Assembly (NCBI RefSeq): GCF_023195885.1
Contig: NZ_JALPKO010000001.1
Span: 1-64,000 of the forward strand
Source: Methylonatrum kenyense
Lineage (GTDB): Bacteria; Pseudomonadota; Gammaproteobacteria; Nitrococcales; Aquisalimonadaceae
Length of the DNA: 64,000 bases
Direction: 5' to 3'
Below the pieces are notes generated by a model, which was given only the letters and a program-made list of their open reading frames with translations, searched no databases and had not been told where the DNA came from. This document shows, piece after piece, positions 624 through 63,133 of the stretch. Numbering within the stretch: the first letter of the stretch is position 1; every line of letters starts with the position of its first letter. The translations under genes were made by a program, and so were the position numbers.

Positions 624-902
624 TTCAGGAAACACTGAATTATTCGCACGCCTGCGTTGGAGTCCGCATTTTTTCCGAGGCAAGGCGCGCTGCGCCGCGC
701 CGCAGTCGTTCTGCGGTCAAGCAGCGCAACGCAGCAATCGGGAAAAATGCGGCCCAACCCGAAGGGCCCGGCCGGTTTTGGCCCCTGGCAGCGTTGCGCC
801 ACCGGCCCGGTAGCTCAAGCTACCGAACCGGCACCGCGCCTTGCCAGATGACCAAAACCGGTCTCGGGCGCAGACGCGGGGATAATTCAGTGTTTCCCTA
901 AA
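624..902. repeat. MITE-like element, full-length copy 1 (about 279 bp)
   Basis: The ends are imperfect terminal inverted repeats of about 30 bp: the left begins AGGAAACACTGAATTATTC, the right read inward is AGGGAAACACTGAATTATCC. Inside are two hairpins. The first runs from a CGCATTTTTTCCG arm near 664 to a GGGAAAAATGCGG arm near 752; the second is a long inverted repeat from about 769 to 862 centred on GGTAGCTCAAGCTACC. The whole could fold as a three-way junction. A second full copy lies inverted at 49632-49910. No coding capacity. Its right end supplies the glutaminase stop codon. Confidence 0.85.
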
Positions 903-15237: not shown

Positions 15238-15295
15238 TTAAGGAAGCGCTGATTTGTTTCCGCGTCTGCGTGCGAATGGATCAGCGTTTCCTTAA
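15238..15295. repeat. Minimal MITE-like derivative (58 bp, TTAA at both ends)
   Basis: TTAAGGAAGCGCTGATTTG at the left is mirrored by GATCAGCGTTTCCTTAA at the right. Only the two terminal inverted repeats remain, joined by a few bases, so it can form one hairpin. It lies between the divergent GAF cyclase and dapC and may overlap the dapC promoter. Confidence 0.8.
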
Positions 15296-17750: not shown

Positions 17751-18874
17751 GCGAGACTCTGGAACTGGCCAAACGCCTGATCGCACGGCCGTCGGTGACC
17801 CCGGACGACGCGGGGTGTCAGGAACTGCTGCAGCAGCGCCTGGCGCACCACGGTTTCCGCGCCGAGGCCCTGCGTTTCGGCGAAGTGGACAACCTCTGGA
17901 GCCGGCGCGGCAGCGACGGCCCGCTGTTCGTCTTCGCCGGTCACACCGACGTTGTGCCGACCGGTCCGGCTTCCTCCTGGCGCTTCCCGCCGTTTGAACC
18001 CACCGTGCATGAGGGGCAGTTGTACGGCCGCGGCGCCGCCGACATGAAGGGCAGCGTCGCCGCCTTCGTCACCGCCGTTGAACGCTTCACGCGCGACTGC
18101 CCCGAGCACAGCGGGTCCATCGCGCTGCTGATTACCAGCGACGAGGAAGGCCCTGCGGTGGACGGCACCAAACGCGTGGTCGACTGGTTGCAGCAGCAGG
18201 ATATGCCCATCGACTGGTGCCTGGTGGGCGAGCCCAGCAGCGAATCGGTGGTGGCGGATACAGTAAAGATCGGTCGACGGGGCTCGCTGAACGCGCGCAT
18301 CACCGTGCGCGGCGTGCAGGGCCACGTGGCCTATCCGCACAAGGCACGCAATCCAATTCACCTGCTGGCGCCGGCGCTGCAGGAGCTAACCGCCGCCGAA
18401 TGGGATGCCGGCAACGCCAGCTTCCCGCCGACCACCTTCCAGATCTCGAACATCAACGCCGGCACCGGGGCCACCAACGTGATTCCGGACACGGTGGAGC
18501 TGCTGTGCAATTTCCGCTTTTCCACCGAGACCACGCCGGAGGTCTTGCAGAAGGCAGTGCAGGACGTGCTGGACCGGCACGGCCTGGACGCGCACATCGA
18601 CTGGACGCTGTCGGCGATGCCGTTTCTGACCGAATCGGGCGTACTGGTGGACGCCACCTGCGCCGCGGTGCGGGAAGTCACCGGACTGGACACGGTTTTG
18701 TCCACCGGCGGCGGCACCTCGGACGGACGCTTCATCGCCCCCACCGGCGCCCAGGTCCTGGAACTCGGACCGTTGAACGCGACGATTCACCAGATCGACG
18801 AGCGGGTCGGGGTCGACGACCTGGAGTCGCTGTCCAGGATCTACGAGGCGATCCTTCGCCGCTTGCTGACCTGA
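17747..18874 (+). CDS. dapE: Succinyl-diaminopimelate desuccinylase
   Basis: Zinc-dependent M20 hydrolase releasing succinate from N-succinyl-LL-diaminopimelate. Metal and catalytic residues appear in order: [11 protein letters not shown] (His, Asp), [10 protein letters not shown] (bridging Asp), TSDEEGPA (catalytic Glu and metal Glu) and the C-terminal NATIHQIDE (His). The dimerisation domain lies in the middle with [14 protein letters not shown]. 375 residues, typical. Last gene of the dapC-dapD-yffB-dapE unit; a repeat element begins 10 bp beyond its stop. Confidence 0.95.
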
Positions 18875-18884
18875 ATCCGCGGGC

Positions 18885-19161
18885 TTAAGGGAAACGCTGA
18901 TTTATTCGCACGCCTGCGTTGGGGTCCGCGTTTTTCCCCCAGGGCAGTTGTTCCCTCCAGCGCAGCGAATGCACGCGGTGTGATCCGTCACGACCGTGGC
19001 AACAAGCTCTTGGTCACCAGCCACGGCCACCCCCGTCTTGTTTAGTCCGAAAACCTTCGTTGTCACGCCAACAGATGACACCGCGTGGGTCCGCTTCGCT
19101 TGACCCACCCTACGCTTCTGGCCAGAAGCACGTCGCCTTGGGTAAGTCAGCTTTTCCCTAC
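18885..19161. repeat. MITE-like mosaic element, type 2
   Basis: Starts TTAAGGGAAACGCTGATTTA with the family terminal repeat, then the beginning of the first internal hairpin arm, then a different interior: GCGCAGCGAATGCACGC, GGTGTGATCCGTCACGA, TTAGTCCGAAAACC and GGGTCCGCTTCGCTTGACCC. The far end (CAGCTTTTCCCTA) is a degenerate terminal repeat inside the last codons of tmcA. An inverted relative is at 58864-59135 and a partial one at 62046-62302. Confidence 0.75.
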
Positions 19162-23342: not shown

Positions 23343-23415
23343 ACTACCGTTTTAAGTTTTATGTTTTACGTTTAGAGTTCGTCTTTTACGTAACACATTA
23401 AACGTTACACTTTAA
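23343..23415. repeat. AT-rich ACGTTTTA-type intergenic hairpin, copy 1
   Basis: Between nudF and rlmD. CGTTTTAAGTTTTATG and later AAACGTTACACTTTAAACG form an imperfect inverted repeat unlike the surrounding GC-rich sequence. A better-preserved relative occurs at 27648-27716. It spans the rlmD stop codon. It could end or pause transcription within a co-directional gene series, or be a mobile short repeat. Confidence 0.55.
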
Positions 23416-27647: not shown

Positions 27648-27716
27648 GTTTTACGTTTCAGGTTTTAAGTTTTACGTGCGATTTCATCGTTAAACCTAAA
27701 ACATAAAACGTAAAAC
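27648..27716. repeat. AT-rich ACGTTTTA-type intergenic hairpin, copy 2
   Basis: A left arm at 27648-27676 (GTTTTACGTTTCAGGTTTTA...) and right arm at 27688-27716 pair over 29 bases with only a few mismatches around an 11-base loop. It separates pdxJ from recO, both minus strand. The sequence is strikingly AT-rich in a GC-rich background and shares its words with 23343-23415. Confidence 0.7.
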
Positions 27717-27719
27717 GTC

Positions 27720-31321: not shown

Positions 31322-31363
31322 AAACCGAGAGCGGTCCCGGGCGCAGGCGTGCGAATAAATCTA
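31322..31363. repeat. MITE-like fragment abutting lepA
   Basis: CGAGAGCGGTCCCGGGCGCAG and GCGTGCGAATAAATC match the inner part of the family's terminal repeat, but the outer AGCGTTTCCCTAA is missing. The break coincides with the CTA that encodes the lepA TAG stop codon, so the repeat end has been trimmed or rearranged there. Confidence 0.6.
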
Positions 31364-42880: not shown

Positions 42881-42926
42881 TTAAGCTCGCGCGCAGACGC
42901 GGGAATAAATTTCAGCGTCTCCTTAA
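42881..42926. repeat. MITE-like deletion derivative (46 bp, TTAA at both ends)
   Basis: Starts TTAAGCTCGCGCGCAGACGC and ends GCGTCTCCTTAA. Only one terminal repeat is intact; the other is reduced to TTAA plus a few bases. Its right-hand TTAA supplies the TAA stop codon of the DUF1674 gene. Confidence 0.6.
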
Positions 42927-49195: not shown

Positions 49196-49558
49196 ATGAA
49201 CGGCATGCGCATCCTTTGCTGGATAGTCACCGCGGTTACCGTCTGGCTCTGCCTGAGCGTTCCGTTCGGCAGTGGCGTCTGGGCCGGTGCGGTCCTGCTG
49301 CTGTTGGTGGCCAGCCGCCTCGCGTCGGGAAACCTGCTGATCTTTTTCCTGGTGACTGGCTGGGTCGCGCTGTCCAATGGGGACCTGACCGCCACATCGT
49401 CGCTCGAGGCCCTGTACCTGCCGCTATGGGTGATGCTTTCAGGTCTCTATGTGCTCTGTTTCGCGGTGTGGATCGTGCCCGGCCTCGCGGCCCGCGGCAG
49501 CGCCCCGGGCAGCACCGGGGCCGGCGGCGACGGGGGTGGTGGCGCCAACGGATGCTAG
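49196..49558 (+). CDS. Small hypothetical membrane protein
   Basis: 120 residues with three hydrophobic segments (about 6-22, 28-42, 46-62 and a fourth near 74-97) and a glycine-rich C-terminal tail (GSTGAGGDGGGGANGC). No family recognised. The ATG at 49196 and a second at 49205 are both possible; ribosome site weak. It lies between thiC and a full-length MITE-like copy, whose left TTAA begins 74 bp after the stop. Confidence 0.5.
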   Translation: MNGMRILCWIVTAVTVWLCLSVPFGSGVWAGAVLLLLVASRLASGNLLIFFLVTGWVALSNGDLTATSSLEALYLPLWVMLSGLYVLCFAVWIVPGLAARGSAPGSTGAGGDGGGGANGC

Positions 49559-49631: not shown

Positions 49632-49910
49632 TTAAGGAAACACTGATCTATTCGCGCGTCTGCGCCCGAGACCGGTTTTGGTCATCTGGCAAGGCGCGGT
49701 GCCGGTTCGGTAGCCAGAGCTACCGGGCCGGTGGCGCAACGCCGCCAGGGGCCAAAACCGGCCGGGCCCTTCGGGTTGGGCCGCATTTTTCCCGATTGCT
49801 GTGTTTCGCTGCTTGACCGCAGAACGACTGCGGCACCGCGCAGCGCGCCTTGCCTCGGAGAAAAATGCGGACTCCAACGCAGGCGTGGGAATAATTCAGT
49901 GTTTCCTTAA
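49632..49910. repeat. MITE-like element, full-length copy 2 (279 bp, TTAA at both ends)
   Basis: Begins TTAAGGAAACACTGATCTAT and ends ATAATTCAGTGTTTCCTTAA. Relative to the copy at 624-902 it is inverted, with the same two internal hairpins: CCGGTTTTGG...CCAAAACCGG around GGTAGCCAGAGCTACC, and CCGCATTTTTCCC...GGAAAAATGCGG. Near-identity of interior sequence over about 200 bp indicates recent or active spread. The right TTAA supplies the eda stop codon. Confidence 0.88.
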
Positions 49911-62045: not shown

Positions 62046-62302
62046 CGTGGCAACGGGCTCTCGGTTACCGCCACCGATGCCCAACCAGGCCCTGGTTCGT
62101 CCGAACGCCTTCCTTGTCCGAAAACCCACGTTGTCCTGCCTACAGATCACACCGCGTGGGTCCGCTTCGCTTGACCCACGCTACGCCTCCGGACAGTAGC
62201 AGCTTGCCTTGGGTAGTAGGGCTACCGAACCGGCACCGCGCCTTGCCAGATGACCAAGACCGGTCTCGGGCTCAGGCGCGGAAATAAATCAGCGTTTCCC
62301 TA
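62046..62302. repeat. MITE-like mosaic element, partial
   Basis: Left part: GATCGTGGCAACGGGCTCTCG and TTGTCCGAAAACCCACG, GGGTCCGCTTCGCTTGACCC (type 2 interior). Right part: GGGCTACCGAACCGGCACCG to CCAAGACCGGTCTCGGGC (one arm of the type 1 second hairpin), then the terminal repeat GAAATAAATCAGCGTTTCCCTA. So type 1 and type 2 modules are joined in one element. The last bases give the BON gene its TAG stop. Confidence 0.75.
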
Positions 62303-63133
62303 ACGCACCACCAGATCGTCAGCCTCGACTGCACGTACGCCGCGCAGGTCACTGACCAGGGCCACTGCCCGCCGCTTCTCGTCCTCCGAGCTGACGTCAC
62401 CACTCAGATGCACCACCCCGTCTCGGGTTTCGATGGAGATGCTGCTGGCACCGACATCCCGCGAAAACGACAGGGTTGAACGCGCCTTGGCGGTGATCCA
62501 GCTGTCGGAGACGGTATCGGCAAACTCCCGCGCCTCGTCGTCTTCCGGCTCCTCACCGCGGATCGCGAGTTGGTTATCCACGGACTGCACGCCATCGGTA
62601 TCGCGCGCCAGTCGCTCGGCGGTTTTCTTGCTGGTCTCGGAATCGACATCACCGGTCAGGGTCACATTGCCTCCCCGGGTGGTGACGCTGATATCGAGCC
62701 CGCTGGTGTTGCGGTTCCACAGCAGCTTGGATTTGATGGTTGCCGTCAGCGAGGAATCCGAGACCCGATCGCGAAAGGTGCGCTCGCCGATCCGCTCGCG
62801 TTCCGCGGCCGCCTCGCCTTCTGCGCCGTCGACCTCGATCCGGTTGTCGACATTCTCGATTCCGTCCACGTCGCGCGCGATCTGCTCGGCCAGATCTCGC
62901 TGTGCATCGTCCTCCACAGTACCCGAAAGAATGGCCGTATCACCTTCTACGTCCACCGAAATATCAAACACGGACAGGTGCTCATTGAGCGCATAGGTTG
63001 CCGCCAGCTGGCCTTCAAGTCGTGCCTCGTTGACCGCCTGTCCGACACCATTGTCCTCCGCCGAGGCGGTGGCTGGGCCGGCCACGAGGGCACTTGCGAA
63101 CAACGCGCCGACCAAATACTTGCCGATTTTCAT
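62300..63133 (-). CDS. Periplasmic protein with three BON domains (OsmY-like)
   Basis: 277 residues. Signal peptide (MKIGKYLVGALFASALVAG) then three BON domains at roughly 38-105, 124-195 and 207-275, each with the IxxxTxxxxVxLxGxV pattern, for example DISVTTRGGNVTLTGDVDSE and SISIETRDGVVHLSGDVSSE. BON domains bind phospholipids in the envelope. Start ATG 63133 is seven bases after AAGGAG; the earlier ATG at 63139 is too close. Stop codon lies in a MITE-like repeat. Confidence 0.88.
   Translation of the reverse strand: MKIGKYLVGALFASALVAGPATASAEDNGVGQAVNEARLEGQLAATYALNEHLSVFDISVDVEGDTAILSGTVEDDAQRDLAEQIARDVDGIENVDNRIEVDGAEGEAAAERERIGERTFRDRVSDSSLTATIKSKLLWNRNTSGLDISVTTRGGNVTLTGDVDSETSKKTAERLARDTDGVQSVDNQLAIRGEEPEDDEAREFADTVSDSWITAKARSTLSFSRDVGASSISIETRDGVVHLSGDVSSEDEKRRAVALVSDLRGVRAVEADDLVVR

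Follow-up and report, generated by a model that had tools for sequence, protein, structure and literature searches.

Why do the stop codons of several genes lie directly against copies of one repeat family? The question arises at the very start of the window, by which we mean the whole 64,000-nucleotide stretch of Methylonatrum kenyense DNA that was analyzed. There the stop of glsA adjoins such a repeat, and an earlier note had named five further genes in the window with the same arrangement, proposing that the repeats supply the stops, perhaps together with a hairpin for the 3' end of the mRNA. We asked what the repeats are, how often they meet a stop, and whether the stops belong to the repeats or were there before them.

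The repeat ends consist of a tetramer YTAR followed by GGAAACRCTGATNTATTC. The organism's own genome (2.95 Mb in 29 contigs) holds 274 such ends at two or fewer mismatches, against none for a reversed control pattern. Our own-genome sample joined the window to 78 stretches taken from listed ends, which cover only part of the 274; it amounted to 551,871 bases with 569 called genes and 172 ends. Full copies measure ~270 bp and minimal ones ~50 bp, and a few reach ~405 bp. Among the 52 paired copies, in which both ends were recognized, 27 are flanked by YTAR left and right, with identical tetramers in 19 of these. YTAR is thus a duplicated 4-bp target. It was carried by 117 of the 172 sampled ends, a share slightly raised by eight of the 78 stretches (L079–L086) that came from a YTAR-only list, and 30 of 120 elements lacked it at any recognized end.

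The duplicated target and the terminal repeats identify the parent family. YTAR is the target reported for IS5 (PMC10359306, PMC5493358), and the terminal inverted repeats match those of an intact element of 1210 bp from a relative in the same family (locus L094 of genome G004). That element is flanked by TTAG left and right, has terminal sequences GGAAGCGCTGATCTAATG and GGAAACGCTGATTTATTC, and encodes an IS5-family transposase (NF033581, E = 1.5e-101, plus PF01609 and PF05598). This intact parent element is present in four identical copies in G004 and in one copy, at 95% identity, in G011. The repeats studied here differ from the IS5 family in being too short for a transposase, and searches of the own draft genome revealed no intact transposase: a profile search for PF01609 (E ≤ 0.001) gave no match, and a protein search gave a single 47-aa scrap with a stop inside, in a draft of 29 contigs in whose gaps a copy could sit. 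These repeats are MITEs, non-autonomous members of the IS5 family. REP elements are not known to have a duplicated target. A REP element/RAYT system was ruled out, given elements of ~270 and ~50 bp with a duplicated YTAR; REPs are palindromes of 20–40 bp with a tagged end (PMC3733652).

Two published elements invite comparison. MITEPsy1 of Pseudomonas syringae is described as probably an IS5-related MITE, with CTAG or YTAA targets; it differs in its length (100 nt), its termini, and its six tabulated copies, and the text available for that source makes no mention of gene stops at its target (PMC3189936). QMITE2 in enhC of Coxiella burnetii is likewise a MITE located at the 3' end of a gene and bearing on the stop position there, but it is described as an in-frame insertion adding C-terminal residues in one strain, with direct repeats of 7–9 bp and a stop that is not preserved by a duplicated target (PMC5896051). 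Separately, we observed that the two ends of the paired copies (window and L009–L086) agree with each other at position 7 in 40 of 52 copies (29.9 expected after shuffling, p = 0.002) and at position 13 in 34 of 52 (28.1 expected, p = 0.036), with p values uncorrected across 16 positions; subfamilies or end-to-end conversion could explain this.

The features of the window that bear on the question are as follows.

628–897, no strand: full-length 270-bp MITE adjoining glsA, with both terminal repeats, from alignment with 22 similar-sized copies
898–901, minus strand: target tetramer TTAG (gene strand) with the glsA stop TAG (900–898)
15238–15295, no strand: minimal 50-bp MITE (15242–15291) with TTAA on both sides and no called stop there
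18890–19157, no strand: repeat-end pair between tmcA and the gene ending at 18874
19147–19149, minus strand: tmcA stop TGA, positions 9–11 of the repeat end
31331–31363, minus strand: lepA stop TAG (31363–31361), then a repeat remnant without the first ~10 nt
42912–42926, minus strand: DUF1674 stop TAA within TTAA (42923–42926), adjoining a diverged repeat end, GGAGACGCTGA
49632–49910, no strand: full-length MITE (49636–49906) flanked by TTAA left and right, the latter tetramer (49907–49910) holding the eda stop TAA (49909–49907)
62282–62303, minus strand: repeat end (62282–62299) plus TTAG holding the BON-protein stop TAG (62302–62300)

The stops of glsA, tmcA, lepA, DUF1674, eda, and the BON-protein gene are all six where the earlier note had placed them, and Pfam backs the six gene names. 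The description of these stops as lying in the repeat fits tmcA; it does not fit glsA, DUF1674, eda, and the BON-protein gene, in which the TAR of the repeat-adjoining YTAR is the exact stop (TTAG, TTAA, TTAA, and TTAG, respectively) and therefore lies in the target tetramer, outside the repeat. At glsA, the tetramer on the far side of the MITE has diverged to TTCA; the Pfam match of the protein reaches the final profile position (286/286), and no orthologue was found in the comparison genomes G001–G003. Orthologues of the BON protein without the repeat (G001 and G002) have an unchanged C-terminus, with stops in GTAA and TTAA. The eda product of G002 has the same end residue, but with repeat-like sequence at its own stop, and that of G001 differs in its last residues. 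We claim no gene convergent with eda, since the 120-aa open reading frame called at 49196–49558 has no Pfam match.

The other two genes show different junctions. At tmcA the repeat end at 19157 is GTAG followed by GGAAAAGCTGA; the reading frame passes through the GTAG and ends at the repeat-internal TGA. In comparison with the G002 orthologue, the last three residues are unaligned, and the orthologue continues for 18 residues past the aligned part. The lepA junction is GGCTAG followed by ATTTATTCGCACGCC, and the remnant there would represent a former CTAG insertion. The C-terminal length of LepA is identical in G001–G003, with a different last residue in two of the three.

Several further observations concern repeats in the window. 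The 100-bp stretches 19045–19144 and 62116–62215 lie beside the MITE ends at 19157 and 62299 and are 86% alike; the copies there appear to be composite, with different modules inside. The minimal MITE (15242–15291) folds as a single long hairpin. Outside this family there are a perfect 39-bp tandem duplication at 2347–2424; another scattered repeat family, around GGGTGTCCCGGATTTC, at 2433, 2994, 4493, 51196, and 56278; and an AT-rich 27-nt inverted pair (23348–23374 and 27691–27717; 93% complementary, 4.3 kb apart) in an otherwise GC-rich window.

To place these six genes in context, we recorded the offset of called stops from all sampled ends. A called stop was found at offset 0 at 30 of the 172 ends and at offset -11 at six, compared with 12 over offsets +1 to +20 together; these counts depend on a gene caller written for this analysis, and its scores were weak for L076 (offset 0, score 8) and L066 (offset -11, score 14). 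The offset-0 tetramers were CTAG (14), TTAG (7), TTAA (7), CTAA (1), and ATAA (1). None of the 30 stops at offset 0 was TGA, although TGA accounted for 310 of 501 called stops, and the absence of so common a stop is what tells a preference for YTAR apart from a preference for gene ends. The frame behind offset -11 is YTA-RGG-AAA-CRC-TGA, giving C-termini such as LGKR (L042 and L072). A frame test free of gene calls, in which we counted reading frames that stay open over 110 or more codons and end at the tetramer, gave 45 of 116 own-genome YTAR ends in the stop frame, compared with 13 and 15 in the remaining frames; for control YTAR sites the corresponding counts were 165, 195, and 177 of 1067. 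The coincidence beyond chance that the earlier note had seen among the window's copies is therefore real, extends genome-wide when repeat-to-stop distances are checked, and is broader than first stated.

Were the stops brought by the elements or already present? We compared C-termini with orthologues in G001–G003. Two of the 36 rows at offset 0 or -11 were dropped for weak gene scores, and lepA and DUF1674 were added, for a total of 36 queries; matches were excluded if they scored below 150, lacked a stop, or had a MITE end at the stop (six cases, including G002 eda). Offset-0 genes ended at the same residue as their element-free orthologues in 39 of 68 comparisons and within one residue in eight, and differed in 21, where element-free means that no end of the own-genome MITE lies within 2 nt of the stop, a set that includes at least three comparisons (L026, L069, and L079 in G003) with the end of another family there. 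Counted by gene, 20 of 29 had at least one exact match. In 25 of the 47 comparisons that agreed to within one residue, the orthologue stop was TGA. The genes at offset -11 gave the opposite picture, with no matching C-terminus in nine comparisons (four genes).

These comparisons suggest that most offset-0 stops are older than the insertion. Because of how target duplication works, a TAR that is in frame within the target would have been a stop before the element arrived. The proposal that repeats supply stops thus fails for most of these genes, whose target TAR would already have been the stop, and it is further weakened by orthologues lacking the repeat, which frequently have an unchanged C-terminus and in many cases a different stop codon. 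It stands for tmcA and the five other ends at offset -11, a minority in which the element's own TGA is used. The alternative suggestion of insertion at stop codons was right, the in-frame TAR being target DNA.

We consider, with a probability of roughly 0.9, that target-site choice (YTAR, duplicated on insertion) combined with tolerance explains the coincidence of repeats and stops, rather than stop supply or a 3' hairpin. IS5-family MITEs insert into the palindromic YTAR and duplicate the tetramer, which is its own reverse complement and has TAA or TAG on either strand. Within the genes of this GC-rich genome YTAR is uncommon, yet it is part of every gene end of the form YTAA or YTAG. The product is YTAR-element-YTAR, whose gene-side copy keeps TAA or TAG in frame; with the gene-side YTAR still an in-frame stop, the protein keeps its sequence and the element would be tolerated. 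Sites at gene ends also tend toward the GC-rich flanks typical of occupied sites. Where YTAR lies in another frame near a gene 3' end, the TGA of the element (in GGAAACRCTGA) can end the gene, as probably at tmcA, and genes ended in this way would gain a few repeat-coded residues. Mobilization was presumably in trans, by an IS5 transposase since lost, and purifying selection probably lies behind the scarcity of elements inside genes.

The use of available sites bears on how far this explanation reaches. Inside called genes the ratio of filled to free YTAR sites was 3:247, with a caller that may overlook genes cut by insertions and so undercount intragenic ones, compared with 59:325 in intergenic DNA (p = 9e-11). 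At gene stops it was 28:60, a 2.6-fold over-use relative to intergenic sites before correction (p = 0.0007), and in convergent settings stops were over-used 5.9-fold, again uncorrected (13:20 vs. 6:54). All site-use counts omit the 30 elements without YTAR at a recognized end. It is unlikely that gene 3' ends, above all convergent ones, attract or retain elements beyond the presence of YTAR, with the elements then serving as acquired 3'-end structures; if they do, the uncorrected 2.6-fold (convergent 5.9-fold) excess is partly functional. Target context weighs against it. Filled non-stop sites are GC-richer than free intergenic YTAR (flank GC over ten bases 0.603 vs. 0.521), the opposite of the AT-rich, easily opened DNA proposed for IS5 hotspots (PMC5493358). 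With flank GC and tetramer type modeled, the odds ratio for a stop fell to 1.49 (0.84–2.62, p = 0.19) in a regression on 87 insertions and 57 free stop sites, with the three intragenic insertions and sites near locus edges omitted. The target model is adequate when fitted to non-stop sites only, predicting 21.5 filled sites among 85 stops (95% range 13–31) where 28 were observed (P = 0.11). The adjusted odds ratio may be an over-correction, flank GC being partly a proxy for the coding side, and a modest extra effect of stops beyond target context is possible.

We think it improbable that elements are retained at gene 3' ends since their hairpin ends or stabilizes the upstream mRNA. The minimal copy, on either strand, and a single full copy each outdid every one of 200 shuffles in folding (z = -7.05 and -6.50 for the former, -9.44 for the latter), and the uncorrected over-use of stops is as expected under this idea; good folding, however, would be expected of any inverted repeat and is unspecific. 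A role in the 3' UTR should allow TGA stops and small distances, whereas the spike is confined to offset 0 and to TAA and TAG. Nor do the offset-0 ends show an orientation bias (11 left, 15 right, four unclassified), ends at stops are no better conserved than others (mean mismatches 0.40 for 30 ends vs. 0.34 for 88), and the excess at stops is not significant once target context is modeled. A terminator scan, limited to the eda copy, turned up a single terminator-like motif against a shuffle expectation of 0.4, and this motif lies on the other strand from eda. Selection for a 3' hairpin, as the earlier note had suggested, is thus unsupported by orientation, by distance, by the type of stop at offset 0, by end conservation, and by the target-context model, despite the 2.6-fold excess before correction.

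That the repeats generally truncate or extend genes through new stops is very improbable: two of the three frames entering YTAR-GGAAACRCTGA do meet a stop, and the internal TGA is used at six of 172 ends with the C-terminus never kept, but random truncation should give similar numbers at the two offsets rather than 30 and six, and offset-0 C-termini are often exactly conserved. Stop supply probably holds for the minority of genes at offset -11, tmcA among them.

The frame test was also applied to other genomes. In other organisms with the same ends, among the matches listed, the stop frame was open at 28 of 96 ends, compared with six and four in the other frames (control sites: 278, 877, and 575 of 4564). 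The long stop-frame cases (threshold 120) among the matches listed came from Desulfovibrio, Oscillospiraceae, Clostridia, Treponema, and Paraburkholderia, among others; five of the 27 (L123, L147, L170, L183, and L192) were from Ectothiorhodospiraceae CSBr16_16 and are probably those of a near relative. The four intact IS copies of G004 had a long stop frame at only one or two of their eight ends, at L221 alone, where the stop frames measure 150 and 104 codons and, at the first, another frame measures 113.

An unrelated element, a second MITE family with YTAR as its target, tells a similar story in the 2.7-Mb sister genome G003. Its ends, YTAR followed by CCCGCATATCTCACC, number 479 at one or fewer mismatches (238 forward and 241 reverse), whereas the own genome has none, nor do G001 and G002; among the loci L339–L398 most of the complete copies listed measure 184 bp including both tetramers, and one measures 166. 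The frame test gave 27 of 76 ends in the stop frame, compared with 10 and 10 (control: 18, 25, and 17 of 105; p = 0.0055). This element occupies the G003 orthologous stops of L026, L069, and L079, and a diverged one that of DUF1674. In L399, a PF13701 (DDE_Tnp_1_4) remnant starts ~140 bp inside one of these ends.

In the titles and abstract openings of the literature searched, with most subscription journals outside its scope, we did not find the coincidence of stops and insertion targets stated. MITEs on stops are ordinary transposon behavior, not a new way of ending genes. The rule that emerges is that TAA and TAG stops can be occupied harmlessly by an element with TAR in its duplicated target, because target duplication restores the stop. 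A gene end fused to a repeat should therefore be called neither truncated nor regulated before the target duplication has been inspected. Within one genus the stop-frame signature accompanies two unrelated families of elements, and with the same ends it is found in several phyla.
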